From NCBI GenBank assembly GCA_012517765.1, contig JAAYUI010000019.1:1-64000 (forward strand): a DNA stretch of 64,000 bases, given 5' to 3'. Below the pieces are notes generated by a model, which saw nothing but the letters and a program-made list of their open reading frames with translations, did no database searches and had not been told where the DNA came from. This document shows positions 3,551 through 61,762 of the stretch, in pieces. Positions within the stretch are counted from its first letter, which is position 1; each line of letters opens with the position of its first letter. Source of the stretch: Caldisericales bacterium. GTDB taxonomy: Bacteria; Caldisericota; Caldisericia; JAAYUI01. A program made the translations under genes and the position numbers.

Positions 3551-6500
3551 ACAAAAAAACAATTTTGTTTTTGCTAGCTTTCTGCATCTTTTTTGGTTCC
3601 CTGCCCTATGTCCAATCGAAAACCATAGTCAAGATATACCAGGCAACCAACATAAGGATGTCGCCGTCGGTTGATGCGAAAGTGCTCGCAAGAATACAGC
3701 CACCAAAAGACCTTACTGTCATTTCCGAAACGAAAGACAAATCTGGCAAGGTATGGTTTAAAGTCGAGGCTTCGCCAGGCAAAAAAGGCTTTGTGGCATC
3801 ATGGGTGGTCAAAGTCCAGAGGACAGGCACCGAGGAAAAAATTGACGGCCAGGTTGCTGTCATAGACCCCAATTCTAGCATTATAAACTTGAGATCATCC
3901 CCAAATACGTCTTCGAGCGTGGCCTTACAAATAAAGACAAAAACAGAATTGCCAATCGTTGCCAAAACAAAGGGCGACGATGAAAAAGACTGGTACAAAC
4001 TTTCGTTGGGAAACGGCCGTTTCGGCTGGATCGGCGCAGGGCTGATTGATGAAATCAAATCCCCCCAGGTAGCAAAGGAAGAAGTCAAAAACCTTACAAT
4101 AATCATTGATCCACTCACAAACCTTAGGTCCGGACCATCAACAAAATCCCCCGTTGTCAACAGGACAACGTCAACCATCAGGCCATCAGTTGTGGCCAAA
4201 TCAAAAGACGCAGATGGCAAAATCTGGTACGAGATTGTTCTTCCCACAGGGACCCACGCATGGGTGAGATCAGATCTCGCCAAGACAGCAACACCAATAC
4301 TTGAAGAATCGACTTCAACACAAAAGGGCATCATATCAAAGAACGTAAACATAAGGAAAGACGCTGGCCTGAACTTTGCCAAAGTCCATACGACAAAGTC
4401 ACAGATTGTGGTGCAAATACTATCAAAAAAATCTGACGTAAACGGGAAGATGTGGTTGAAAGTTCAAGGAGATTTTGGGGTTGGCTGGGTCCTTGGATCA
4501 ATGGTCGAAACAACATCTTCAAGCCCGTTTGATATTGTGGCGGCAAAAGCGCAACTAAGGCTTGCCCCAAGCCAAGGCGGAAAATTGCTTGGCGTTGTCC
4601 CACGGGAAAGCAAGTGCACAATATCGGGTTCTGCGCTCAACTCGGATGGCGGAACGTGGTATCTCCTGACAACCCAGCAGGGGGAGACAGGATGGGTAAC
4701 AAACACAAAAGTAAAAACTTCCGGCTCTGTTGACCTGCCACCCGCAAACCTTCTCGGGCTCACGGTTGAGCTCCAAAAAGAATCGACACTGGCATCGTTC
4801 CCATCAGGAAGTGGCGGCCCAAAGATTTTTGCCGGCGGAAAAGGCAAGGTTGAGTCCGTAGCGCAAAGGGAAGGCGGCAGGCTTTACTACAGGATACTCT
4901 CAGGCAATCAGGCGGGATGGGTGTCTTCGGAGGATACAAAAAGGCACACACAACCACAGCCGGTCAAACCGGTCGATGTCGGTGAGATCCAGTGGGCAAA
5001 ACGCGGCGATGTCCTCAAATTTACAATCCCTATTTCATCCAAGCCAAACTCGCTGAACATCAAGAGTTACAATGACAATCCAAGAATACAGCTATTTCTA
5101 GATAATTCACTCTACACTGGCGACCTGGAGCCGATTGTTGTTGATTCAACGCTGGTTTCAAGGGTGGGTGTCGAACAGAAATCTGTTTCACCACCAACAG
5201 TGCTGGTTGTTTTCCAGTTAAACAAACCCTGTGATTACCACCTCTCTCCATTAAACCCGACATCAACCGAGCTGGTGCTGGAGATCTTTGAAAAAGTCGA
5301 GTCAAACCAGATGAGGATTGAGATTCAGGGTAGGCCCGTTCACGCAAGTGACCCACCAATACTGCTTGACAACAAGGTCATGGTGCCTCTTGGCGCACTG
5401 GCTTCCCACCTCGGTTACATCATCTCCTGGGATGACAAAGAAAACAGGGCCGAAATGAGCGTTGAGCCCAAAAGACCCTTTGTCTTCTCTTTTACAAATC
5501 TCAAGCCGTCCATGCATGTCGTTGATGGCCAAAACTCATTCTACAAAACAATAGCACCGGCCCCAAGGATTGTGGGAAGCGCTTTCTATGTTCCGATTGA
5601 ACCGGTAGCGCCAATGCTTGGCTTCTCATACATGTACTCGCCAGTGCAAAACAAGGTCTACCTCGACCCTGTCATCGACAAGCTGGAAATTGGGGGGTGC
5701 CTCGACACAAGCAAGGCATGCTCGACTCTGTCAACCCAGGTTTCATTCTTCACTGACTTTGATGTCACCGAACTTCCCGATGGAAGATCAAAGATAACCC
5801 TGAACAACTGTGTTCTTGGGGAAAACGCATTAAGCGGGATTGATGCCAAAAAAGTCTCTGTAGATTTTGACCCAAGGACCAATGCAACCCCCCCAAAGGT
5901 AACGATCCTGATAACAAAAAAATCCACAGAAGAGATAGGCTATGGTGAGGCAAGGGGCCCAAACAAGCTCATTTTTACTCTCAAGGAGAAAAACAAATCA
6001 GGACTCAATGGAAAAACCATTATAATTGACCCCGGCCATGGCACCTTTAATGAAGACGGTTCATACGATGTCGGATGCAGCGGCATGATGGGCACTTATG
6101 AGTCCGAGGTGAACCTCCAGACAGCATTCGAGCTCGGGAAAATGCTCTCTTCCCAGGGAGCAACTGTCATATACACCAGAACAGAGGAGAGAAACATAAA
6201 AACCCCAGATCTCGAAGGAAGGGCAAATCTTGCGAATTCCTCCGGTGCCGACATGTTTATCTCAATCCACTTCAATGCCGCAAGGGACCCTGATGCCCAG
6301 GGGACAGAAACCTACTATTACACGGACTTGGGCAGGCGCCTTGCGGAAAAAATCCACAAGAACGTCCTCTCCAAGATTGGTTTTGAGGACAGGGGAATCA
6401 AAAAACGTGGTTTTTATGTGTGCCGCGAAATAGTATCAATTCCATCGATCCTCATCGAGCCACTGTTCCTGAGCAACAAAAAAGGCGAGGGCTGGATAAG

Positions 6501-45600: not shown

Positions 45601-48600
45601 TTTGAACGGGAGCGGCTCGAGCGATTTTACAATCTTGACGGTCTCAATGCTGACAGTAACAATCTTTTTGATTAGCCTGACAATATATTCCGGCTCATCA
45701 TCCTTGTTTGGGTCATTTGTTATCCCGGACCTCTCGTCAGTCGTCACGCGGTACTGGTCAATGATCCAGTCCAGCGCTGACCTGTTGCCAAGCCTGTATT
45801 CAAAAACCTCCGGCGGTATCCCTGCAAGGGTCAGGAAATCGTTGTAGACGATCTGCGTTTTGTCCTTTGAAAGCTTCATCTTCTCAACGCGCCAGTCAAG
45901 CGCCACACCAGGCACCTCAACCATCTCGAGCGGGTACTCTGTCTGGGATTCGTAGTTTACATGCAAATCCGCAAGCTTGCGGCCGGCATCAGAAAAAGCC
46001 CAAAAATCAGGTGCGAAAGGAATCCTTGGCAGTTCACGCCTGAGGTTTGCCTCATATTCCTTGCGATAGCCAGGGTGGTGCAAAAGGCCATAAACATAAT
46101 AAAAAATGTCCCATTTGGTGATTTGGCGAGGCCCTTCTCCTTCTGTCAAAGGATTTTCGCATTTCTGCCCCTCTCCTTCTGTGGGAGGGTTTTTATATTT
46201 CTGTCCCTCTCCTTCCAGGAGAGGGTCCGGGTGAGGTGGTTTTTGGATGGTTTTGAAGGTCTTTAAAACCCCCTCATCCTTTTTCCTTCTCCCGGAGGGA
46301 GAAGGATCTGAGTGATTTCCTACTTGCTCGGAGGGGAGAGAAGGATCTAAATGATTTTCTGCTTGCCTGGAGGGAGAAGGATTCGAGTAGTTGTCTGTCT
46401 GCTTAGAGGGAGAGGGGGCTGGAGAGCCTGCAGACCCAGAGGGTCCAGCAAAAGAAGAATAATGCTTGCGGAACTCCTCCAGGGCCCAGTCAGTGATATT
46501 CTCTTTTCTGCCAGTGCCGTCCTCGTTGTAGGTATAGAAGGGGAAGGTTTGACCATTCGGAGTCAACTGCACATCAGGAATGCAATCTGCCATCAATGCA
46601 AAAAATGGCCTGTCCATTCCAATCCCTTTAACACAAATAACCTTATTTTCGGACTCGGTTTCAGGGGTGGGGAAGATTTTTGGAAATACATATACTTCTT
46701 CATTAAGTATTCTATTGAAATATAAAGATGATTTTATATATGGTCTATAAATTGATACTCTTAATTCAATTTCAGAAAAATCCACCAATTTCTCTCTTGC
46801 CAGATCAAGCTTTAAATCTCTGCTCCAGCTAATTTTCTTGTCATCAATAGTTACAAAACCATCCATGTCTGGTTTATTATTTTTAAGTGGTTTCGGATTC
46901 AGCCTGCTCCATCTGAAAACATGCTCATTGTAGGTATCTATTGTATTTTTTATGTTTCTGGCAAGTACTTCTCTTTGAAAATTATATGCCCACACATCCC
47001 TATTTGTTTTGACTCCATTACTAAACATTTTGAAAATTACTTTATTCGCCTTGCCATTCTCTTCTTTTCCCTCTTTTGTTCCCAGAGAAATAAAACCCTC
47101 AAAATCATCACTCAAACCCTCGGTCAGCCAGGTGTTGTTCTTGTCCGGCACAATCTCTTCCCAGTCGATTTTTGATTCATTGACTCTTGAGTCAATGAAT
47201 TCATATTTCTGCTCTTTTCTCCAGTATTCATCAACACGGGAGTAGAAAATTCTGGGGAGATTGCCTAAAACCCCCTCATCCGTCGCTTCGCGACACCTTC
47301 CCCCAGCAGGGGAAGGATTGGTGGGGTCACCCGGCTTTCCAGAAGAAACATTTTCAATATTTGCGCTCCCCTCTCTTTTTGCCACAGAAACAATTTTCAT
47401 GGCCCCCTCTCCTTCCAGGAGAGGGCTGGGGTGAGGTGGTTTGTCCTTCGATTTTTTGATGAAGAAATTTATGCTGACACCCACCTGTATCCCAAACACA
47501 TTGTGTGTTGTTCCGGACAGTTTGGGGTTTTTCCTGACATTTCCGCCAAGGTCAAGCACATAGACCAAATCAAATTCGTCTTTTAGGTGTTTCCTCATCC
47601 CGTCAAAAGCAATCTGGTCAATAAAACTGTTGTTTGTCACAACCGCAACAATCCCCTCGCCATTTTTGTTTATCCTGTCAGAGGCCCAGCGGATCGCCTT
47701 TACATAGACATCGGACAAAGCATTTTTGTTTGTGGCGCTCGAATCTTTTGCGTAAGTCTCGGCCACCCTTTTGTCAATGACAGGGTATTTTCTGTTTTTG
47801 TTGTTGTCATTCTCGTTGACCTGGCCGGCATTGTAGGGCGGATTACTTATTATCACGAATATCGGCGTTTTCTTCTGCTTTTCCACCCTCTCGGTATTTT
47901 TCTCGGTCATTGAGAAAAGGTATGACCCATCCGGCTCTGCAAGCTGGAAGGTGTCCACAAAGCAGATGCCCTCAAAAGGCTGGTAGGTCCCTGTTTTTTC
48001 CCAGTACTCGTGCTCGATGTTCATGCAGGCCACATAATAAGGCAGGAGCATGACCTCGTTGCAATGCAGCTCATTTTCATATTTTTGCGTCAATGCAGTT
48101 TGCCTGATTGACCTCATGACGTTCATGATGAAGTTTCCAGTGCCGACAAAAGGGTCTAGGATGTGGACACCCTCGTCAGAGAGCGACCTGCCAAACTCCC
48201 TTTGCAAAATGTCCTCAACCGACTTGACCATGAAATTTACAATTGGTTGTGGCGTGTAGACTATCCCGTGGGTGTCCGCCACCTTGATGGCAAACCCCTG
48301 GAAGAACTTTTCGTAGACAGTGTTCATGAAGCCCTGCATTTCGCTCCAGTCCTTGATGTCACGGGCCGCTTCCTCGATTGCCCTGTAGAACCTGTCCAGC
48401 TTTGAGGTGAATTCACTGCGGTTGAACGATCGGGAAGCCAGCGCCTCAATCACTTTTTCAATTTCTGCGGCAATGACGTTCCTTTTTATGAAATCAGGGT
48501 TGTTAAAAACTGTCCTGAAGAGCCTTTCTGTTAGCAAATGCTGGATGAGCATTTCTTCAAGGGCGGCCTCTGAGATGTTTGGGTTTATGGATTTTTTGCA

Positions 48601-49191
48601 CAACTCGGCAAAAGAGGCAAACGCCACCTTGTATTTCTGGTTTTTTGCCTGCTCTTCATCAATTATCTGCTGGAGCCCCTGGGCAAGCCTTGGTATCTCT
48701 GCCTTGAATTGCTCAACAGCCTTGTGAAAATCTTCGATGATCGGTTGTTCAAATTCAAAAAAGATTTTTAGGGCCTCGACGAGTTTTTCCGGCTTTGTCA
48801 CATCCTCGTCAAAAACCTGCCTGCCATTCTGATATATGACAATGCGTTTTGGCTCCTGGAACATGATGTTTTTGTTCGGGTAGCCCCTCTCAAACTTTTT
48901 CTTTATTTCAACATCAAGTTTGTCGCCTGTGTCTTTTGCCTCCCAGATGCCATGATGGAGCTTGAATTCATCAACAAGCAGGCCATCATAACGATTGCTG
49001 TGGCCGCCATTTTTTTCTGAATACTGCTCGACAAGGGTGTAATTGAACTGCTGGGCACATTTCTTCAGGAGCGAGGAAAAAGCAGGTGCTACGGAACCTT
49101 CTTTTACATGCCCCAAATCCCCAAGTTTTGAGATCTCTTCAAAATAGTCTTTGATTGCTTTGTGGTCTGGTCTTATATTTAATGTTTTCAT
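45598..49191 (-). CDS. Fused nuclease-DNA methyltransferase restriction enzyme (type IIG / type ISP-like, no helicase), with repeat-derived inserts
   Basis: The 1197-residue protein has an N-terminal PD-(D/E)xK-like nuclease (YDGLLVDEFKLHHGIWEAK), a helical linker, an adenine-N6 methyltransferase (SAM motif ILDPFVGTGNFIM; catalytic ISNPPYNAG) and a long C-terminal target-recognition part. This is the type ISP layout without the helicase, close to type IIG. Two proline/glycine-rich inserts do not belong to the fold: one encoded at about 47265-47443 (PPHPSPLLEGEG, NPSPAGG) and one at about 46130-46440 (PPHPDPLLEGEG, PSPSGRRKKDEG). They are translated copies of a repeat also present at 49680-49985. 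The frame is intact. The ATG at 49191 has GGGGTGG before it; the frame open to 49296 is probably untranslated. Confidence 0.88.
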   Translation of the reverse strand: MKTLNIRPDHKAIKDYFEEISKLGDLGHVKEGSVAPAFSSLLKKCAQQFNYTLVEQYSEKNGGHSNRYDGLLVDEFKLHHGIWEAKDTGDKLDVEIKKKFERGYPNKNIMFQEPKRIVIYQNGRQVFDEDVTKPEKLVEALKIFFEFEQPIIEDFHKAVEQFKAEIPRLAQGLQQIIDEEQAKNQKYKVAFASFAELCKKSINPNISEAALEEMLIQHLLTERLFRTVFNNPDFIKRNVIAAEIEKVIEALASRSFNRSEFTSKLDRFYRAIEEAARDIKDWSEMQGFMNTVYEKFFQGFAIKVADTHGIVYTPQPIVNFMVKSVEDILQREFGRSLSDEGVHILDPFVGTGNFIMNVMRSIRQTALTQKYENELHCNEVMLLPYYVACMNIEHEYWEKTGTYQPFEGICFVDTFQLAEPDGSYLFSMTEKNTERVEKQKKTPIFVIISNPPYNAGQVNENDNNKNRKYPVIDKRVAETYAKDSSATNKNALSDVYVKAIRWASDRINKNGEGIVAVVTNNSFIDQIAFDGMRKHLKDEFDLVYVLDLGGNVRKNPKLSGTTHNVFGIQVGVSINFFIKKSKDKPPHPSPLLEGEGAMKIVSVAKREGSANIENVSSGKPGDPTNPSPAGGRCREATDEGVLGNLPRIFYSRVDEYWRKEQKYEFIDSRVNESKIDWEEIVPDKNNTWLTEGLSDDFEGFISLGTKEGKEENGKANKVIFKMFSNGVKTNRDVWAYNFQREVLARNIKNTIDTYNEHVFRWSRLNPKPLKNNKPDMDGFVTIDDKKISWSRDLKLDLAREKLVDFSEIELRVSIYRPYIKSSLYFNRILNEEVYVFPKIFPTPETESENKVICVKGIGMDRPFFALMADCIPDVQLTPNGQTFPFYTYNEDGTGRKENITDWALEEFRKHYSSFAGPSGSAGSPAPSPSKQTDNYSNPSPSRQAENHLDPSLPSEQVGNHSDPSPSGRRKKDEGVLKTFKTIQKPPHPDPLLEGEGQKYKNPPTEGEGQKCENPLTEGEGPRQITKWDIFYYVYGLLHHPGYRKEYEANLRRELPRIPFAPDFWAFSDAGRKLADLHVNYESQTEYPLEMVEVPGVALDWRVEKMKLSKDKTQIVYNDFLTLAGIPPEVFEYRLGNRSALDWIIDQYRVTTDERSGITNDPNKDDEPEYIVRLIKKIVTVSIETVKIVKSLEPLPFK
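46130..46440. repeat. REP-like and tandem repeat block inside the restriction gene (copy 1)
   Basis: Contains palindromic pieces such as CTCTCCTTCCAGGAGAG and CCTTCTCCCGGAGGGAGAAGG and units of about 36 bases. From 46189 to about 46305 it matches 49692-49807 almost base for base. On the coding (minus) strand it is read in frame, each 36-base unit giving 12 residues. Confidence 0.85.
47265..47443. repeat. REP-like repeat block inside the restriction gene (copy 2)
   Basis: Bounded by ACCCCCTCATCCGTCGC at one end and CTCTCCTTCCAGGAGAG with GGGGTGAGGTGGTTT at the other, the same end pieces as in copy 1. The middle differs. Also translated in frame. Confidence 0.75.
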
Positions 49192-49345
49192 TTCCACCCC
49201 TGTAGAATTACAAGAAACCAACATCAATTGATACATACAAATATATGCCAAGTCAACATTTTGAAGTATTGGAATTCCTTTGAAGGTGATTTTCAAAAAA
49301 ATCCAGGTTGTTGTATTTTGGAAACAAGCCAGCCATAATCAAAAC

Positions 49346-50036: not shown

Positions 50037-51821
50037 TTATAAGTTTCTTTCCTGGGCCTTGAACTGGAGCTCGTAAAGGGTCTTGTACATCCCGCCTTTT
50101 TTCAGGAGTTGTTCATGGGTGCCACTCTCTGCAATTCTCCCATCTGAAATTACCAGCACAAGATCAGCATCCTTGATGGTTGAGAGTCTATGGGCCACAA
50201 CAATTGAGGTCCTTCCAGCCATCATGTTCTTCATCGCCTCCTGGATTAGCATTTCAGAGGCTGTATCTATGGAGCTCGTTGCCTCGTCCAGAACAAGTAT
50301 CCTTGGGTCATGGGCAATTGCCCTTGAGAAGGAAAGGAGCTGACGCTGGCCAACAGAGAGCGTTGCCCCTCTTTCGGTCAGAACATAGTCATACCCTTCA
50401 GGCAATTTAAGGATGAAATCCTCGGCGCCGACAAGCCTGGCTGCTTCTCTGGCTCTTTCCCTGCTGATAGGCGAGAGGAGAGTTATATTGTCAATGATTG
50501 GGCCTGAAAAGATGAATGGGTCCTGTAGAACAACAGAAATCTGGCTCCTCAGGTAACCAAGCTTCAGATCGTATATGGAGCGACCATCAATCTTTATATC
50601 TCCACCCTGGATGTCATACAGTCTTGAGAGAAGACTGATAATGCTGGATTTTCCAGCGCCAGTGGGCCCGACAACGGCCACTTTCTGGCCTGGTTTTACT
50701 TCGAATGAAACACTCTTCAAAACAGGCTGGTCTGCCTGATATTCGAACTGCACGTTCTGGAACTCGACATGTCCGCTGATTGGCTCTTCAGGCCATATGG
50801 CATCTACCTTTTCTTTTATGACAACAGGCTCGTCCAGTAGCTTGAATATCCTCTCGGAGGAGGTCATTGCCTCCTGCATAGTGTTGAAGTGTTCGGAAAT
50901 ATCATACATTGACGCATAAAATTCTTTCAGGTAGGACGTAAACGCAACAAGAAGCCCGACTGATATTGCTACCTTGAGCACCAGCAAGCTCCCGTACCAG
51001 ACAACAAAACCAGTCGCAACAGTTTCAAAAAGGTCGATTGCCTGGAAGAAGACCGTATAGTTTAGAACAGCCTTGAGCTGGCCGCTTTTAAGTTCCCCGG
51101 AAATCTTGGCAAACATCCCCTTATTGATGTCTTCCCTGCCACTCCACTGGATGGTGCGCACTCCGGTAATGCTTTCCTGAAGGAAAGCATTGACTTTCGC
51201 TGTCTTGACCCTTACCTCTCTGTAAAATTTTGTTGCGAGGTTCCTGAAAATAACTGCGGCCACCATCATGGGGGGCATGATTGAAACGGCAATCAGCGCC
51301 AGGGTAGGTTGAAGAATGAAAAGCATTATCGTGGAGCCAAGAACTATGGTTACGTCTGTTATCAGCGTTATGACGCCCTGCGTCAGAAATTCATAAATAG
51401 CATCAACGTCCGATGTTATCCTGGTGATGAGTCTTCCAACCGGATTATGGTCAAAAAACGACATCTGGATGTCCTGCAGCTTGCCAAAAATCTGGCGCCT
51501 CATGTCCCTCATCAGATACTGGCCTATAAAAGACATGATGAGGATCTGGTAGTACCTGATAAAAGATTGGAATACTATCAGGGCAAACATTATGGCCATG
51601 AGGATTGCAAGGCCACCGGTATCGCCCTTGCTTATATAATTGTCCAGGGCAAGCTTCATGATGATCGGGGAGGCAAGCCTGAGGGCAGTCCAGAAAACCA
51701 GCATCAACAATGACAATATCGTCTTGCCAGTATATGGCCTCAGGTATTTTATGAGCCTTTTGACAAGTTTTGAATCATACGCTTTGCCAAGGGCTTCTTC
51801 TTCGTGTATGTACTCAGGCAT
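50037..51821 (-). CDS. Heterodimeric ABC exporter, subunit with intact Walker B glutamate (TM288/MdlB-like)
   Basis: A 594-residue half-exporter: six membrane helices to about residue 330, then an ATPase domain. Walker A is VGPTGAGKSSIISLL, Walker B RILVLDEATSSID with the catalytic Glu, and the signature is degenerate (LSVGQRQ). Paired with the upstream gene this gives one good and one poor ATP site, as in Thermotoga TM287/288 and BmrCD. These export drugs, lipids or peptides; the substrate here is not evident. It overlaps the partner gene by eight bases. Confidence 0.92.
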   Translation of the reverse strand: MPEYIHEEEALGKAYDSKLVKRLIKYLRPYTGKTILSLLMLVFWTALRLASPIIMKLALDNYISKGDTGGLAILMAIMFALIVFQSFIRYYQILIMSFIGQYLMRDMRRQIFGKLQDIQMSFFDHNPVGRLITRITSDVDAIYEFLTQGVITLITDVTIVLGSTIMLFILQPTLALIAVSIMPPMMVAAVIFRNLATKFYREVRVKTAKVNAFLQESITGVRTIQWSGREDINKGMFAKISGELKSGQLKAVLNYTVFFQAIDLFETVATGFVVWYGSLLVLKVAISVGLLVAFTSYLKEFYASMYDISEHFNTMQEAMTSSERIFKLLDEPVVIKEKVDAIWPEEPISGHVEFQNVQFEYQADQPVLKSVSFEVKPGQKVAVVGPTGAGKSSIISLLSRLYDIQGGDIKIDGRSIYDLKLGYLRSQISVVLQDPFIFSGPIIDNITLLSPISRERAREAARLVGAEDFILKLPEGYDYVLTERGATLSVGQRQLLSFSRAIAHDPRILVLDEATSSIDTASEMLIQEAMKNMMAGRTSIVVAHRLSTIKDADLVLVISDGRIAESGTHEQLLKKGGMYKTLYELQFKAQERNL

Positions 51822-53586
51822 TGATGCCCTCCTGGCCTATTTGAGTGGCCAGCCTCTGCTTTTCTACGAGGTCGGCGTAGTAGCCGCCTTTTGCCATAAG
51901 TTCCTGGTGGGCCCCATCTTCCACCACCCTGCCCTTGTCCAGGACAATGATCCTGTCGGCAAGCCTCATCGCGCTGACTCTGTGCGCTATTATTATCGTC
52001 GTTCTGCCTTTGATGATTGGCTCCAGCGTGTCTATGATTGCATCCTCGGTAGACGTGTCGACAGCGGAAAGGGGATCGTCAAGGAGCATGATTGGCGGGT
52101 CAAGAAGCAGGGCCCTTGCAATGGCAACCCTCTGTCTCTGTCCTCCAGAAAGCGTAACACCCCTTTCACCAACAACAGTACCAAAACCTTCTGGGAATCT
52201 CTCTATTTCATCCCTGATCTGGACCATCTCTGCAACCTTTTCGATCTCTTCCTTGGTGGCATCAGGCTTTGCAAAAGCTATGTTCTCTCCGATTGAGGCA
52301 GAGAAAAGGAAATTGTCCTGTGGCACATAACCAAAGGATTTCCTGAGCGTCTTTAGGTCCCACTTCCTTATGTCAACGCCATCAATGCTTACTTCACCCG
52401 AATCCGGGTCCCAGACTCTGAGCAAAAGTTTCCCAAAAGAGCTTTTCCCTGAACCAACCGGGCCTACAACACCGACGACCTGCCCTTTCGGAATGACAAT
52501 GGAGATTCCATCTATGGAATTGGTTTCTGTGCCATAGGAAAGTTTGACATCCTTCAGTTCTATTTCTCCCCCAACTGTTTTTGGCCTGTAAGGATTTGGA
52601 GGAGATTTGATGTCGGGGACCGCCTCTGTTATCTCGACAATCCTCTTGAGCGAAGCGTTTGACCTCTGATAAAGGTTTGTCACCCAGCCAAGGGAAATGA
52701 TTGGCCAGATCATGAGGCTGACATAGGCAATAAAGGCAGACAAGCCACCAAGAGTTATCTGGCCCTGCATATACAGAACACCGCCATACCAGAGGATTAT
52801 CAGTACAGGAGTCCAGCTTGCCATGTTCAGGATTGGCCAGAACAGGGCGTCCATGACATTGAGAGGTCTGATGGTCTGGACATATTTGTCCATCATCCCT
52901 TTGTACATCCTCTTCTCGTGGTCCTCCTGGTTGTAGGACCTTATTGTCCTTGCGCCTGAATAGTTTTCCTGGACCCTGCTCACAACCTTGTCATTGTAAT
53001 CCTGAACAACCCTGTAAAGCTTGAATATCTTTTTTCCAAAAAGGTATTCAATGAAGAAGAGCGCCGGAACAAAAAGCAGAACTGGTATGGCAAGCTTCCA
53101 TGATATCGATATCATCAGTATAGTGCCCAGTATTGTCCTCAAGACAGCGTTCGGGAAAAGGTTTCCACCCATACCAAGGAACATCGTTACGGACTGCACA
53201 TCAGAGGAGGCCCTGTTCATAATCTCACCAGTGGACATCCCAACAAAAAACCTGTCCGAGAGCTTGAGGAGCCTGTCATAAATTATGTTCCTGAGATCAT
53301 ATGCGGTGTGCCTGGAAACACCAACGATGACATACCTGCTTGCGACAAAGGTAAAAGTCCTGACTATGGCAATGCCGACAACCCACAGCAATGCTGACAG
53401 TATTATGTGGCTTGCATCCGGCTTTTTGAGGCTTGCTGCATCGATGCTGGCCGAAATGAACATCGGAACCACCATGTCAGAGATGTTTATTAGCACGCCG
53501 ACCATGGCCAATGCGTATTTCCATCTGTACGGCCTTAACAGTCTAGAGTAGTATTGAAATGTAGTCACAGGGGAAATATGCCACAA
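51814..53586 (-). CDS. Heterodimeric ABC exporter, subunit with degenerate Walker B (TM287/MdlA-like)
   Basis: A 590-residue half-exporter with six membrane helices and an ATPase domain. Walker A is VGPVGSGKSSFGKLL and the signature LSGGQRQRVAIARA is canonical, but Walker B reads IMLLDDPLSAVD, with Asp for the catalytic Glu. This is the mirror of its partner, so the two form a heterodimer with one consensus site. The start is unclear: TTG at 53586, or GTG at 53568 giving the more usual N-terminus VTTFQYYSRLL. No Shine-Dalgarno is visible. It diverges from the pspA-like gene across a perfect palindrome. Confidence 0.92.
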   Translation of the reverse strand: MWHISPVTTFQYYSRLLRPYRWKYALAMVGVLINISDMVVPMFISASIDAASLKKPDASHIILSALLWVVGIAIVRTFTFVASRYVIVGVSRHTAYDLRNIIYDRLLKLSDRFFVGMSTGEIMNRASSDVQSVTMFLGMGGNLFPNAVLRTILGTILMISISWKLAIPVLLFVPALFFIEYLFGKKIFKLYRVVQDYNDKVVSRVQENYSGARTIRSYNQEDHEKRMYKGMMDKYVQTIRPLNVMDALFWPILNMASWTPVLIILWYGGVLYMQGQITLGGLSAFIAYVSLMIWPIISLGWVTNLYQRSNASLKRIVEITEAVPDIKSPPNPYRPKTVGGEIELKDVKLSYGTETNSIDGISIVIPKGQVVGVVGPVGSGKSSFGKLLLRVWDPDSGEVSIDGVDIRKWDLKTLRKSFGYVPQDNFLFSASIGENIAFAKPDATKEEIEKVAEMVQIRDEIERFPEGFGTVVGERGVTLSGGQRQRVAIARALLLDPPIMLLDDPLSAVDTSTEDAIIDTLEPIIKGRTTIIIAHRVSAMRLADRIIVLDKGRVVEDGAHQELMAKGGYYADLVEKQRLATQIGQEGINA

Positions 53587-53666: not shown

Positions 53667-54326
53667 ATGGCAGGTTTTTGGCAAAGAATCAGCGACATAT
53701 TGCAATCAAACGTTAACGATTGGCTGACCAAGATGGAAGATCCGGAGAAAATGCTTCCCCTTAAAATTGACCAGATGAAACAGGACCTGGTGGAAGCAAC
53801 GGATGCGGCCGCTGAGGCAATGGCTGTTTCAAAACAGACCGAGATGAGACTCGCTGACATAAGTTTCGATCTCAAGAAGTACAATGATGCAGCACAACAG
53901 GCTCTTGTCGCAAACAAGGAGGAACTGGCAAAAAAATGCATGGCCAGGGTACTCACGCTTGAGAAGCAGCAAAAGAGCGCAGAAGAGGCACATGTCAGGC
54001 AAGTTGAGCTGAACACAAAACTCAAGGACGTCATCGCCGCCCTCAAGGCCAAAATCGAAGAGGCCGATATAAAGATGGACGAGCTCATAGCCAGAAACAA
54101 AGCGGCAAAAGCCCAGGAAAAGGTCGTCAAGACAATGGGAAACATCAATGTTGCCGATATTGGCACAACATTCAACGAGCTCGAACAGAGGGTAATAAAG
54201 AGAGAAAACAAGGTTGCGGCCCTGGCAGAACTTGGCTCTGCAGCCGATTCGCTTGATGACGAGATTGCCTCAATAAGTGAGGAAGATGAAATCAACAAGA
54301 GGCTCCAGCAACTGAAAGGCAAATAA
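53667..54326 (+). CDS. PspA/IM30 (ESCRT-III-like) family protein
   Basis: PspA-family proteins polymerise on the inner face of the membrane and repair or stabilise it. The 219 residues are almost wholly helical and coiled-coil: amphipathic N-terminus AGFWQRISDILQSNVNDWL, then KMEDPEKMLPLKIDQM, typical of the family, and long helices rich in Ala, Lys and Glu. The Shine-Dalgarno is AAGGAGG. Its stop overlaps the next ATG (TAATG). An equally long open frame on the other strand is a codon-composition shadow. Confidence 0.93.
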   Translation: MAGFWQRISDILQSNVNDWLTKMEDPEKMLPLKIDQMKQDLVEATDAAAEAMAVSKQTEMRLADISFDLKKYNDAAQQALVANKEELAKKCMARVLTLEKQQKSAEEAHVRQVELNTKLKDVIAALKAKIEEADIKMDELIARNKAAKAQEKVVKTMGNINVADIGTTFNELEQRVIKRENKVAALAELGSAADSLDDEIASISEEDEINKRLQQLKGK

Positions 54327-54715
54327 TGGGTGTTTTTCTGTTTTTGCTGGGCGCTGTTGTGGCGGGAGTTGTACTTGGAGTCATACTTTATTTTGCCAAA
54401 AAGTCCGTTATGGACAGGATCCAGAAAGAAAAAAGGTCGGCGATGGGCGAGCTGGACAAAAGATATTTTGCCATCAGCGATGACCTGAAGCTCATACAGG
54501 ATATGGGTGACTCACTATCTGGAAAGTACAAAAATGCCACACCGGAAAAAATAGCCAGGACAAAGGAGCTTGCATCCTCGTTTGAATCCGGATGGATTGC
54601 AAGAAGAAAAATGGTCCAGAACCCTTCCAGCCAGGCTGAAGCAACAACTACCTATGAGTTGGACAGGATGATGGATGAACTTGAAATGCTCGTAAAAGAG
54701 ATTTTTACTCTTTAA
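54326..54715 (+). CDS. Membrane-anchored partner of the PspA-like protein, 129 aa
   Basis: One N-terminal membrane helix (LFLLGAVVAGVVLGVILYF) followed by a charged, helical cytoplasmic region of about 100 residues (RIQKEKRSAMGELDKRYFAI through MMDELEMLVKEIF). I recognise no named family. The TAATG coupling to the PspA-like gene suggests that it is an anchor or regulator of that protein, comparable in position, not in sequence, to PspB or PspC. Its last 11 bases overlap the end of the radical SAM gene. Confidence 0.7.
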   Translation: MGVFLFLLGAVVAGVVLGVILYFAKKSVMDRIQKEKRSAMGELDKRYFAISDDLKLIQDMGDSLSGKYKNATPEKIARTKELASSFESGWIARRKMVQNPSSQAEATTTYELDRMMDELEMLVKEIFTL

Positions 54716-55996
54716 GCTCGGAGTAAACCCAGAGGGCGGCTTCCAGCCTTATCTTCTGGATAAGGCAACCCATTTTGTAGGGCAAGAGAATGTCGCCCTC
54801 TTGCAATTTATTTGAGGCAATACAACCACCAGAACAAAGATATGAGGCCCAACAATCAGGGCATTCTCTTTTTCCAGTCAGATGGTTTTTGATTGTGTAT
54901 TCGTCATAAATGGCCTGTGTGGGTGAGTTATCAAGTGTTCCAAGGCAAAAATCTTTTTCTGTGTCAAACTGGTGGCATGGCCAAATTTTCTCATCAGGCG
55001 ACACTGCCAGATATTCTGCACCGGCGCCACAACCACCAGCAGATTTCCTTGCACAAGGGCCATTTTCCAGGTCCATTTCAAAGTGATAAAACTTTATTGG
55101 CATGCCAGCTTTTCTGCACTCAACATAATATCTGGCCAATTTTTCATATTCTTCTCTGATTACAGGGATGTCTTTTTCTGAAAAAGCAACTTTTGGGTCG
55201 TTGCTTACAACCGGCTCAAACGCCAGGTTGTTGATGCCCATCTTGTGAAGGGCAATGACAGAATCAGAAAAATTGATGGTCTCTTTTGAATAAGTGCCCC
55301 TTACATACCACCCTCTTTGTCTTCTTTGGGCGACTTTCATGATATTGGGCAAAACAGCATCAAAAGATGGCCTGCCGTCTTTTAGCACCCTGCATCTGTC
55401 GTTTTCGGCCTTTGGGCCATCAAGGCTGAGGATGAGCGATATGTAATTCTCATCGCAATAATCAAGCATTTCATCAGTAAGCCCCAGCGCATTTGTGGAC
55501 ATGGAAAAGCGCACCGTTTTACCCTTGGTTTTTGAATATTCCTTGGAAAAATCAACCGCCGCTTTGACAGTTCTCCAGGCAAGCGTGGGTTCTCCACCAA
55601 AAAAGTCCACATCAACCTTGGTTCCAGGGGCATTATCAATCAGCCATCTCATGGCCTTGATTACTGTTTCAGAAGGCATCAGTTTGCCCTCAACGGTGGC
55701 CTTGGAGAGGGAGCAATAGGTGCACGCCATGTTGCAGGCATGGGAAACTATCAGGCACAAAGACTTTGGGGAAAGTTTTTGTGGCTTTGGATAATCAACC
55801 CTGGAGAGGATTATTCCTTCGCTGATTAGCTCCAAAACCATTTCTTTGACTTCTCCGGGGGGGAGACTAAACGGATCGAGACCCTCTTCTATTTTTGTAA
55901 AAAGATCATGGGCCTCGTCATCCAATAAAAGCAAAGACCCTGCCTGGCAATCATGAAGCAGGGTCTTTCCGTTAAATCTGAAAGTGTGGATTTTAC
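54705..55996 (-). CDS. Radical SAM/SPASM peptide maturase, SCIFF (ranthipeptide) type
   Basis: Such maturases install thioether crosslinks in cysteine-rich peptides using SAM radicals. The radical SAM cysteines are in SHACNMACTYCSLS, with DFFGGEPTLAW after them. The C-terminal SPASM region has CGAGAEYLAVSPDEKIWPC, CPDCWASYLCSGGC and a last Cys at YKMGC, for two auxiliary clusters. The N-terminus resembles the peptide-binding part of SCIFF maturases: the frame from 55996 reads KIHTFRFNGKTLLHDCQAG and then LLLLDDEAHDLF. That frame begins with GTA right after the precursor stop and has no ATG or GTG; the first usual start is TTG at 55934, which would remove about 20 conserved-looking residues. 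So the real start is unresolved. Confidence 0.88.
55933..55968. repeat. Perfect inverted repeat at the 5' end of the maturase gene
   Basis: AAAGACCCTGC (55933-55943) and its exact reverse complement (55958-55968) with a 14-base loop. In the mRNA it forms an 11-pair hairpin starting about 30 bases after the precursor stop, followed by a short T-rich stretch. It could slow transcription or limit maturase translation so that more precursor than enzyme is made. Confidence 0.7.
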
Positions 55997-56158
55997 CTAG
56001 AGTATCCAGGGAGAATCTGCCCCCTTGGCCTCACAAATCTGGTTTGAAATTGTGTTTGCAGTTTTGGCTGCTGACTTGCACGGGGTCTGGCATTCCCTGC
56101 AGTTTTCGTCATCAATGTTGCTGCAGGCAGGTTTCTTTGCAATTATTTTAATACGCAT
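55997..56158 (-). CDS. SCIFF-like ranthipeptide precursor with five cysteines
   Basis: A 53-residue peptide starting MRIKIIAKKPACS. Cysteines are at 12, 20, 23, 27 and 42. The core NCRECQTPCKSAAKT and NTISNQICE follows the SCIFF (six cysteines in forty-five residues) pattern CxECQxxCxSACKTSCTxxNQxCE, but the two cysteines of the ACKTSC block are Ala and Asn here, and one extra Cys lies upstream. The ATG at 56158 is chosen because GGAGG lies eight bases before it; in-frame ATGs at 56164 and 56179 sit too close to it or within the -10 box. The maturase gene follows without a gap. SCIFF peptides are near-universal in Clostridia; their function is unsettled, with some link to quorum sensing proposed. 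Confidence 0.8.
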   Translation of the reverse strand: MRIKIIAKKPACSNIDDENCRECQTPCKSAAKTANTISNQICEAKGADSPWIL

Positions 56159-56177
56159 TCTCATTACCTCCGGAAGC

Positions 56178-56205
56178 ATTGTAAATGCACCCTTTATGCT
56201 GTCAA
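56178..56205 (-). promoter_or_regulatory. Promoter of the SCIFF-like cassette
   Basis: On the minus strand: consensus TTGACA (56205-56200), 16-base spacer, TACAAT (56183-56178). This is among the strongest promoters by consensus in the window and would give a leader of about 15 bases including GGAGG. Confidence 0.65.
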
Positions 56206-58337: not shown

Positions 58338-59390
58338 ATGAGGAAAAACAGCATTATTATTTCGTGCATCGCCCTTGTAGCAATCACCTTTTCCGCAGGT
58401 TGTGGCGGTTCTGTGCCGGTCAGTGTTTCATCAAGTGTTCCGGCACCCTACGAATCAGCCCCGACAGGCACTGTCGTGACTGCAGAGTACACAGAGCTGG
58501 CGCCAAGGATTGACGGAGTTGCTTCAGAACTCGACGAGGCCTGGACAAATGCCCAATCAACCATCGTCAAGGTCTCGGACAGCGCAAACACCTATGAAGT
58601 TACTCTCAAGGCGGCTTATGATGATGAGAACTTCTTCCTTCTTGCATCATGGGCAGATGAGTCCATGGACGTTGGTGGAAAACCATGGGAAGTCAGGGAA
58701 GGTGGAACATTCAAATCAGGAACTTCACTTCCAAAACAAGACATGTTCGCTCTCGGTTTTGAGGCATCACCAATAAAAGAATTTACAAAACAGGGTTGCT
58801 CGGTGCTTTGTCATGACAATTCCTACATGGCCACCAATGACAAGGGCGAGTTCCTCGATGTCTGGACATGGATGTCGGCAGAATCAGGCCAGCTTGGCAC
58901 CGCAAATGATTATGTGGTAGGACCACTGGCAAACTTCGTTGATCCCAAGGGGGAAACTTTTGACACTACAAGCGCCTACTCATATTTTCCAGGATCGCTG
59001 TATGCCAACAAGCGCAATGCAAGGTCCCCGGAACTCATGCAAAGGCTTACAATACCGTACTCTCTGATGACAATAGGTGACCTTTCCAAAATGGTTGAGG
59101 TTCCAGCTGATACTACAGGATTACCAGCAGGTCTCATGGTCCCATACTACATCAAAAATTCTGGCACAGGCGACATTGCTTGCCAAGCCAAATACGACGA
59201 GCAGGCTAAAACCTGGACTGTCGAGTTTAAAAGGAAACTCGTGACAGCAAACCCGACCCAAGTCCAGTTTGCGCACAAACTAGAAGACGGAGGCTTTTAT
59301 TTGTTTGGTCTTTCGCTCTTCGACAACCAGAAAGGCGTCTCTCATGTTTACACGACAGAGCCAGTCTCTCTGGAATTCTCAGGAAAGTAG
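58338..59390 (+). CDS. Ethylbenzene-dehydrogenase-like heme-binding lipoprotein
   Basis: A 350-residue lipoprotein with lipobox SAGC (Cys near 22), then a domain like the heme b-binding gamma subunit of ethylbenzene and DMSO-reductase-type dehydrogenases: APRIDGVASELDEAWTNA, VTLKAAYDDENFFLLASWAD, and the C-terminal WTVEFKRKLVT. QGCSVLCHDN contains CxxxCH, a variant of the heme c motif often present in this domain family. It is probably an envelope electron carrier, but no molybdoenzyme is nearby. AAGGAGAGG precedes the ATG. It lies 10 bases before the VOR genes, possibly in one transcript. Confidence 0.85.
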   Translation: MRKNSIIISCIALVAITFSAGCGGSVPVSVSSSVPAPYESAPTGTVVTAEYTELAPRIDGVASELDEAWTNAQSTIVKVSDSANTYEVTLKAAYDDENFFLLASWADESMDVGGKPWEVREGGTFKSGTSLPKQDMFALGFEASPIKEFTKQGCSVLCHDNSYMATNDKGEFLDVWTWMSAESGQLGTANDYVVGPLANFVDPKGETFDTTSAYSYFPGSLYANKRNARSPELMQRLTIPYSLMTIGDLSKMVEVPADTTGLPAGLMVPYYIKNSGTGDIACQAKYDEQAKTWTVEFKRKLVTANPTQVQFAHKLEDGGFYLFGLSLFDNQKGVSHVYTTEPVSLEFSGK

Positions 59391-59400
59391 GTTTTTATAA

Positions 59401-60474
59401 ATGGGTGAAAAAATCTTAATGAAGGGTGCTGAAGCCATTGGTGAGGCCGCAATAAGGGCAGGTTGCCGCCACTTCTTCGGCTATCCGATAACACCACAAA
59501 ATGAAGCGCCAGCATACATGGCAAGGCGTCTTCCAGAGGTAAACGGAACATTTTTGCAGGCAGAATCGGAAGTTGCAGCCATCAATATGCTTTATGGCTG
59601 TGCAGCAGCAGGCAAAAGAGTCATCACAACATCATCTTCGCCAGGCATATCGCTCATGCAGGAAGGGCTTTCCTACATAGCAGGCTCTGAGCTGCCAGTT
59701 GTGGTGATGAACGTGGTAAGGGGTGGCCCGGGCCTTGGTGACATTGCCCCGGCGCAATGCGACTACTTCCAGGCTGTAAAAGGCGGCGGACACGGAGATT
59801 ATCATCTCATAGTCCTCGCTCCATCAACTGTTCAGGAAAGCATTGACCTTATGAAACTGGCATTTGATCTTGCAGACAAGTATCGCAATCCGGTGATGAT
59901 GCTCTCCGACGGTCTTTTGGGGCAGATGATGGAAGCAGTTGAATTTCCAGGTTTTGTTGACATCGAACAACTCCCAAAAAAACCTTGGGCTGCTGATGGT
60001 ATGCAGGGAAAAAGGACCAGAAACCTCGTCAACTCGTTTGACCTTCTTCCAGAAGGCCTGGAAGTGATGAACAAGAAGATGTGGTCAAAATATGCTGAAG
60101 TCGAAAAAAACGAAGTCAGATTTGAGGAAGTTGAAACAGCTGACGCTGAATATGTCTTCGTTGCATACGGCACCGTTGCCCGCATCATCAAAACTGTAAT
60201 CAAAGATCTCCGCTCAAAAGGACATAAAGTAGGGCTTCTGAGGCCAATCACCCTTTATCCTTTCCCAAGCAAACAACTCCTCGCCCTCTCTGAAAACCCA
60301 AGAGTAAAGTTCTTCCTCGACGTCGAACTGAGCTTTGGCCAGATGATCGAAGATGTCAAACTCTCAACAGAATTCAAGAAACCGGTCCACTTCTATGGTC
60401 GCCAGGGTGGCATGCTGCCAGAACCGAACGAGATCTCCGAAGTAATGCTTAAGCTTATGAAGGAGGCAAAGTAA
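59401..60474 (+). CDS. vorB: 2-oxoacid:ferredoxin oxidoreductase alpha subunit, VorB type
   Basis: The 357-residue alpha subunit resembles the 3-methyl-2-oxobutanoate (2-ketoisovalerate) enzyme: KILMKGAEAIGEAAIRAGC, HFFGYPITPQNEAPAYMA, QAESEVAAINMLYGCAAAG, RGGPGLGDIAPAQCDYFQAV and GGHGDYHLIVLAPSTVQ are typical of VorB. It degrades branched-chain 2-oxoacids to acyl-CoA with reduction of ferredoxin; the exact substrate range is inferred. The stop overlaps the next gene (TAATG). Confidence 0.92.
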   Translation: MGEKILMKGAEAIGEAAIRAGCRHFFGYPITPQNEAPAYMARRLPEVNGTFLQAESEVAAINMLYGCAAAGKRVITTSSSPGISLMQEGLSYIAGSELPVVVMNVVRGGPGLGDIAPAQCDYFQAVKGGGHGDYHLIVLAPSTVQESIDLMKLAFDLADKYRNPVMMLSDGLLGQMMEAVEFPGFVDIEQLPKKPWAADGMQGKRTRNLVNSFDLLPEGLEVMNKKMWSKYAEVEKNEVRFEEVETADAEYVFVAYGTVARIIKTVIKDLRSKGHKVGLLRPITLYPFPSKQLLALSENPRVKFFLDVELSFGQMIEDVKLSTEFKKPVHFYGRQGGMLPEPNEISEVMLKLMKEAK

Positions 60475-61217
60475 TGGAACAGCTAAACCACATGCCAACT
60501 CCACTCATGGATACCCCGAGGAGCTATTGCCCGGGATGCACCCATGGAGTAATCCACAGGCTTGTTGCCGAAGTTATCGAGGAAATGGACCTTCTCCAGA
60601 AGGCAATCATTGTCCTTCCGGTCGGATGCTCTACGCTTGCAGTCGACTACTTTGCATTTGATTCGGTGCAGTCTGCTCACGGTCGTGCACCGGCCGTTGC
60701 CACTGGAGTTAAAAGGGCCCTCCCGGACAGATTTGTAATGACCTATCAGGGAGATGGCGATCTCGCCTCAATCGGTGCCGCCGAAATGGTCCATGCGGCC
60801 ACCAGGGGTGAACTCATCACCACCATCTTTGTCAACAATGGCATTTATGGAATGACCGGTGGACAGATGGCCCCAACCTCGCTGATGGGCTGGAAAACCG
60901 AGACTTCCCCGTACGGAAGAACGGCACAGGCAAACGGTTATCCAATCAGGGTCTCCGAGATGCTCGCCCAGCTCAATGGTCCAGCCTATATAGCCAGAAC
61001 AGATGTTGTTTCTGTTCCTGGAATCAACAAAACAAAGGCTGCAATCAAAAAAGCTTTTACAGCACAGATCAAGGGCCTTGGCTACTCAATTGTTGAAATT
61101 CTCTCCACCTGCCCGACAAACTGGGGAATGACCCCGGTTGACGCACTCAAGAGGGTCAAAGAGGAAACAATGAAGTATTATCCTCTCGGTGAATTCAAAG
61201 TTGCGGAGGGACTCTGA
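60474..61217 (+). CDS. vorA: 2-oxoacid:ferredoxin oxidoreductase beta subunit (TPP binding)
   Basis: The 247-residue beta subunit has the cluster cysteines in YCPGCTHGV, LPVGCSTLA and CPTNWGM, and the TPP motif TYQGDGDLASIGAAEMVHA with FVNNGIYGMTGGQMAPTS, typical of KorB/VorA enzymes. Start and stop are coupled to the alpha and gamma genes (TAATG, TGATG). Unlike the PFOR operon, no ferredoxin-like delta subunit gene is present in this cluster. Confidence 0.93.
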   Translation: MEQLNHMPTPLMDTPRSYCPGCTHGVIHRLVAEVIEEMDLLQKAIIVLPVGCSTLAVDYFAFDSVQSAHGRAPAVATGVKRALPDRFVMTYQGDGDLASIGAAEMVHAATRGELITTIFVNNGIYGMTGGQMAPTSLMGWKTETSPYGRTAQANGYPIRVSEMLAQLNGPAYIARTDVVSVPGINKTKAAIKKAFTAQIKGLGYSIVEILSTCPTNWGMTPVDALKRVKEETMKYYPLGEFKVAEGL

Positions 61218-61762
61218 TGGCACAACACGAACTTGTCGCCGCCGGATTTGGCGGACAGGGAATCATGATGCTCGGCAAGCTTTTTGCCGAAGCAGGCGTT
61301 CTAGAAGGCAATTATGCCACCTTCCTTCCCTCCTATGGCCCAGCCATGAGGGGTGGAACGGCAAATTGTGCCATAGTTATCTCCAAAGAGCCAATTGCCT
61401 CGCCAGTGCTTCCACATCCAAAAGTGTGTGTAGTAATGAACCTTCCATCACTTAAGACCTTTGAGCCACTAGTTGCCCCAGGAGGCACTCTCATAATCAA
61501 TTCCTCCCTAATCAAGGAGAAAGCCAAAAGGACCGACATAAAAACTATCTATGTACCTGCAAATGAAATTGCTGAAAAAGCAGGAATGGTAAAAGCGGCA
61601 AACATAGTTGTCCTTGGTGTTGTCGTCAAGGCAACCGGCGCAGTAAAGGCAGAATCGGCGAAAGAGGCCATCAAGCAGACCCTCGGGGAAGCAAAAGCAA
61701 AATATCTTCCAATAAACCTGCAAGTTCTTGATGCAGGCCTGAATTTCGACATCAATGGATAG
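61217..61762 (+). CDS. vorC: 2-oxoacid:ferredoxin oxidoreductase gamma subunit
   Basis: The 181-residue gamma subunit: ELVAAGFGGQGIMMLGKLFA, then FLPSYGPAMRGGTANCAIVI, as in KorC/VorC. The gene order alpha-beta-gamma differs from the gamma-delta-alpha-beta order of the PFOR cluster at 42668, so the two operons are separate lineages and not a recent duplication. It overlaps the peptidase gene by eight bases. Confidence 0.92.
   Translation: MAQHELVAAGFGGQGIMMLGKLFAEAGVLEGNYATFLPSYGPAMRGGTANCAIVISKEPIASPVLPHPKVCVVMNLPSLKTFEPLVAPGGTLIINSSLIKEKAKRTDIKTIYVPANEIAEKAGMVKAANIVVLGVVVKATGAVKAESAKEAIKQTLGEAKAKYLPINLQVLDAGLNFDING

Follow-up and report, generated by a model that had tools for sequence, protein, structure and literature searches.

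In the window analysed here, a stretch of 64,000 nucleotides from the metagenome-assembled genome (MAG) of an uncultured anaerobe of the Caldisericia (phylum Caldisericota), two overlapping genes on the minus strand encode a SCIFF-type precursor peptide (55997..56158) and a SCIFF maturase (54705..56009). The precursor, recognised from its sequence, from profiles and from its homologues, translates as MRIKIIAKKPACSNIDDENCRECQTPCKSAAKTANTISNQICEAKGADSPWIL and has 53 residues with five cysteines (C12, C20, C23, C27 and C42). A Shine-Dalgarno sequence GGAGG (56167..56171, minus strand) lies 8 nt 5' of the gene's second ATG, from which the 53-aa reading begins. The longer version given in the ORF listing, which starts at an upstream ATG, was rejected; this codon is ACG in three sister genomes, and thus the 53-aa start is the right one. 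A promoter-like TTGACA-16-TACAAT element (56178..56205, minus strand) agrees with the consensus at 11 of 12 positions, but it is a consensus match only and would leave almost no 5' leader.

The Pfam SCIFF model PF13165 matched the precursor without gaps at 44.8 bits (gathering threshold 27, E 1.1e-11), and NCBIfam TIGR03973 scored 45.2 bits, its curated equivalog cut-off being 50. SCIFF homologues of the peptide were detected in 38 of 41 relatives. Because homologues occur in the relatives and in genomes of the phylum, with the maturase adjoining wherever the contig is readable, the gene is not a chance ORF. The strict sense of SCIFF calls for six cysteines in about 45 residues; the precursor has five, four of them at family positions, with the counterparts of Cys32 and Cys36 absent, and we therefore regard it as a SCIFF homologue and not as a six-cysteine SCIFF. 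Most Caldisericia SCIFFs likewise have five cysteines. The adjoining maturase expected of a SCIFF is present, its gene overlapping the end of the precursor gene, and the two genes co-occur across the phylum. A further common feature of the Caldisericia SCIFFs is an aromatic C-terminal tail (KRWIW, RFIW, or SPWIL in the window, 55997-56011), which is absent from the clostridial ones that were read; in several Caldisericia families the codons of this tail contain the maturase start.

The maturase (434 aa; RRE, radical SAM and SPASM domains) was assigned on the basis of TIGR03974, homologous starts and a fold model. The ORF finder placed its start at a TTG at 55934, which removes part of the RRE, and homology to CteB begins 5' of this codon, at IHTFRFNG. 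The start is probably the CTG at 56007-56009, overlapping the last codons of the precursor (CCC-TGG). At the same place the relatives G024 and G012 have ATG GAT, and G004 and G008 have CTG. An SD-like AAGGGGG (56020..56026, minus strand) lies 10 nt 5' of the CTG, and in G004 the sequence AAAGGAG stands at about the same distance. Read from the CTG, the protein covers positions 1-448 of the 451 in the TIGR03974 profile, compared with 92-448 when read from the TTG. Its score against this model, 364.5 bits, is under the curated cut-off of 425; TIGR03974 is still the best-matching family. The protein has all 12 of the cysteines that are conserved among 33 maturases; those of the CX3CX2C motif and the eight of the SPASM domain are among them. 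Of the solved relatives, CteB comes first in sequence similarity (E 4.8e-88) as well as in fold, where 5wgg matches with a TM of 0.88 along almost the whole protein. The AlphaFold model, predicted with 21 alignment rows from which phage and plasmid rows were left out, reached a pLDDT of 89.9 and a pTM of 0.89 and has an RRE-like N-terminus.

The two genera of the window's family both have a pair of half-size ABC exporter genes next to the cassette (in the window on the minus strand, 51814-53586 and 50037-51821, together 50037..53586), a possible export partner. A PspA/IM30 family gene with a small downstream ORF (53667-54715, plus strand) is convergent with the maturase gene and adjoins it in both genera. 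The gene neighbourhoods outside the window's family revealed no shared partner gene. The window also encodes a type ISP restriction-modification enzyme (46000-49296, minus strand; PF18135, PF22240) and a protein (58338-59390) whose N-terminus resembles that of a lipoprotein and which has a heme domain of the ethylbenzene dehydrogenase type (PF09459). The latter adjoins genes that, by sequence reading, resemble 2-oxoacid:ferredoxin oxidoreductase subunits (59401-61762).

The two-gene layout, with a leader and a Cys-rich core in register, is that of the CteA/CteB thermocellin system of Clostridium (Acetivibrio) thermocellum (PDB 5WGG, 5WHY). CteB and the window maturase share the RRE-radical SAM-SPASM organisation and all cluster cysteines at 35% identity; the window maturase differs in five otherwise invariant positions and in its probable CTG start. 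We established the register of the peptide by aligning it with the canonical relative G024, using the numbering of CteA (C21, C24, C28, C32, T34, C36, T37, C43). Since this alignment agrees with the ungapped profile match, Ala31 (codon 56066..56068, minus strand) falls on Cys32 of CteA and Asn35 on Cys36. The residues Thr33 and Thr36 correspond to Thr34 and Thr37, so both candidate acceptors are kept. The peptide further differs from CteA in an extra leader Cys and in its SPWIL tail. These results uphold the sequence-only reading, which had seen a SCIFF-like precursor of 53 residues with five cysteines, both cysteines of the ACKTSC block lost and one, now placed at C12 in the leader, gained upstream; the alignment to the SCIFF family that it proposed yielded the register with CteA in which Cys32 and Cys36 are missing.

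In CteA and in Tte1186a of Caldanaerobacter subterraneus a single thioether has been described, and its ring is disputed: Cys32 is joined to Thr37 in vitro, but to the gamma carbon of Thr34 in cells (PMC8326336, PMC8172795). In CteA, Cys32 alone was found to be bridged, though CQT belongs to the family core (PMC8326336). The Tte1186a/Tte1186 pair consists of a SCIFF precursor and a maturase as in the window, where the acceptor position Thr37 is kept, yet the Cys32-Thr37 bridge cannot form in the window peptide. All five genomes of the window's family (f1, G000-G004, comprising two genera) encode Ala at position 32, and the stretch CKSAAKTANT is identical throughout. As the known ring-forming Cys has been lost in this lineage, its mature product must differ from those studied.

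Within the phylum, the loss of Cys32 is limited to f1: the remaining genomes have 42 SCIFFs, and each of the 38 that were inspected retains this Cys. The other Caldisericia SCIFFs (e.g., that of G019) resemble the window peptide in the leader motif, CRxCQTPCKSA, Thr34 and Thr37, the aromatic tail and the adjacent maturase, but retain Cys32. In most of them Cys36 is replaced: it is Val in f4, Met in f3 and Ser in all read members of f2 but one, and is still Cys in f5, f6, f7 and G005. This family-by-family spread indicates that Cys36 was lost repeatedly and Cys32 in f1 alone; judging from the alignment, the two losses are separate events. Cys32 has also disappeared from SASKTSC-bearing SCIFFs of gut clostridial type (L090, MT838578.1; L097, IMGVR_UViG_3300006213_000114), which have an adjoining SCIFF maturase. 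Unlike in the window, Cys32 is there replaced by Ser and not by Ala, Cys36 is kept and Thr37 is changed to Ser. By alignment, then, f1 is not alone in having lost Cys32, and a separate loss to Ser is found in gut clostridial contigs.

Across 25 distinct SCIFF cores that were read, two Cys-x-Thr motifs recur, CQT (24-26) and CKT (32-34). The CKT motif is lost in f1, L090 and L097, and the CQT motif in f7, L088 and L091, but none of the 25 cores lacks both. The motifs are lost singly in about 4 and 3 of the 25 cores; chance alone would give about 0.5 double losses, and the pattern is thus weak. In L091 (MT836133.1, around 641-781), of gut clostridial type, the core reads GGSGEGQTSRESACKTSC and is without Cys21, Cys24 and Cys28. 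With Cys32, Cys36 and Cys43 kept and an intact maturase adjoining, it is a mirror image of the loss in the window.

We tentatively favour the reading that the two genes form a functional SCIFF (ranthipeptide) system in which the ring has moved in the window's family, Cys23-Thr25 being the most likely new site. The RRE of the maturase would bind the leader (residues 1-19), and the radical SAM cluster would generate a 5'-deoxyadenosyl radical that abstracts a hydrogen from the acceptor side chain; a Cys thiol near the open Aux I cluster would then be joined to the acceptor as a non-alpha thioether. Since the donor Cys32 is Ala here, another Cys must serve. A ring in the retained C23-Q24-T25 (56084..56092, minus strand; C24-Q25-T26 of CteA) would have the same Cys-x-Thr spacing as the CKT motif that was lost. 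We rank this site first because no core of the tally has lost both motifs; the formation of a thioether and the residues that it joins are inferred from sequence and homology. The literature searched contained no report of a thioether between Cys24 and Thr26. A broader proposal, which we consider possible though doubtful, is that Cys24-Gln-Thr26 is a second SCIFF thioether site sufficient on its own, on which f1 and, independently, some gut clostridia rely, the Caldisericota maturase having been re-tuned.

The peptide could also be a decaying relic, with the maturase acting on something else, as two family cysteines are lost and the scores lie under the curated cut-offs. However, the same core occurs in five genomes of two genera, and between the genera it (C20-E43) differs with a pN of 0.07 and a pS of 0.65, by which measure the core is under purifying selection; the dN/dS of the maturase is about 0.08-0.12. 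Within a genus the peptide is 98-100% identical, compared with 92-94% for the maturase, and the leader, the SD sequence and the maturase overlap are intact. Decay is thereby largely refuted and we consider it very improbable. If the system works, the old acceptors may have kept their role, with Thr33 or Thr36 linked to a new donor, Cys27 upstream or Cys42 downstream, in a larger ring. Conservation speaks for such an arrangement: none of the 25 cores has a substitution at Thr34, not even those devoid of Cys32, Thr37 is kept in the window, Cys43 is universal among the cores, and Cys28 is absent from a single one. Yet the distance between donor and acceptor would be at least 6 residues, compared with 2 or 5 in the known bridges, and the related PapB is strict on spacing (PMC8172795), which makes this alternative rather unlikely.

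The gained leader Cys offers a further candidate site. It stands in a Cys-x3-Asp arrangement (C12-S-N-I-D16, 56111..56125, minus strand), and in the second genus it is shifted by one position and again followed by Asp at this spacing (C13-Q-I-D-D17). Freyrasin, made by the related ranthipeptide system PapA/PapB, has six Cys-Asp bridges, and a bridge of this type (C12-D16, or C13-D17 in the second genus) would mean a drift toward the PapB reaction. We hold this to be improbable: the IDD stretch makes the spacing easy to obtain by chance, the residue lies in the leader, and the window maturase matches the SCIFF model better (364 bits) than the PapB model (230 bits), the latter score being lower than that of the Caldisericum-type maturase (277 bits), which argues against any drift toward PapB. 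Finally, there may be no thioether at all, and the cysteines could serve in metal or cluster binding, in disulfides or in Aux I ligation, or the maturase could carry out another radical modification. The sole mapped donor is lost, and the Cys seen at the open Aux I cluster in the crystal is Cys21 of CteA, which is not bridged (PMC8326336, PMC6231123); its counterpart is kept here as C20, and one of the changes specific to the f1 maturase, F115S, directly follows the radical SAM motif. Against this, the maturase retains all its cluster cysteines, and CteB, its nearest relative of solved structure, forms thioethers, so we regard the absence of a thioether as unlikely, and the moved ring at Cys23-Thr25 remains our preferred reading.

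Besides F115S, the changes E151D, T189S, S282A and F392Y/W are found in all five f1 maturases at positions that are invariant in the 28 others. Other clades show 0-3 such changed positions, even with similar or longer stem branches. The substitution pattern suggests that the five changes arose together with those in the peptide; as the f1 maturase is on a long branch, part of them may be drift. In the maturase tree, f1 is grouped with other Caldisericia (f3, f5/6) with a support of 96, which fits vertical descent.

SCIFF peptides were present in 47 of 54 Caldisericota genomes, and the seven genomes that lack them are also without a maturase match (E 1e-60). The suspicion that the host is not clostridial has thus proved right, and the search of peptide and maturase together, suggested at the same time, returned homologues linked to SCIFF maturases. 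The SCIFF genes adjoin the maturase wherever the contig permits reading; in G037, G039 and G032 the SCIFF is present with no maturase match at E 1e-60, and in the first two it is near a contig end. SCIFF is therefore an inherited, near-universal trait of Caldisericota and not the oddity of one genome. A scan of genome contigs with the maturase returned three MAGs of the same genus and two unrelated Kordia matches, and nothing else. Viral contigs scanned with the Caldisericota alignment yielded no SCIFF, and those scanned with the clostridial alignment two SCIFF loci only; the clostridial comparison draws on some twelve contigs, recorded as phage, viral or plasmid sequences.

Another radical SAM match resembling the SCIFF maturase, on contig C140 of G000, was set aside as a different, PapB/nif11-like system. 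This locus (G000:C140:21067-23403, corresponding to L099:2068-4404) comprises a PapB/nif11/QhpD-like radical SAM maturase (L099:2068-3618, minus strand) and two small Cys/Asp-rich ORFs on the minus strand, of 136 aa (3615-4025) and 129 aa (4015-4404), whose starts (NKHIKPLN and MKHIVPLN) are SCIFF-leader-like; by sequence it is a possible large ranthipeptide locus. No such match was detected in the four other family genomes, and as the bin contamination is 5%, the owner of this contig is unsure.

Our literature search found no paper linking Caldisericum with radical SAM and no description of SCIFF for Caldisericota; to our knowledge, quorum sensing has been reported for clostridial SCIFF products only. 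What is new is that a whole lineage has fixed the loss of Cys32 together with enzyme changes, in a phylum for which no SCIFF description was found. Caldisericota is thereby shown to be a second phylum that carries SCIFF by inheritance and almost universally, and a natural lineage free of Cys32, with the rest of the peptide under selection, makes it possible to test cleanly which of the bridges is important and if there is another.
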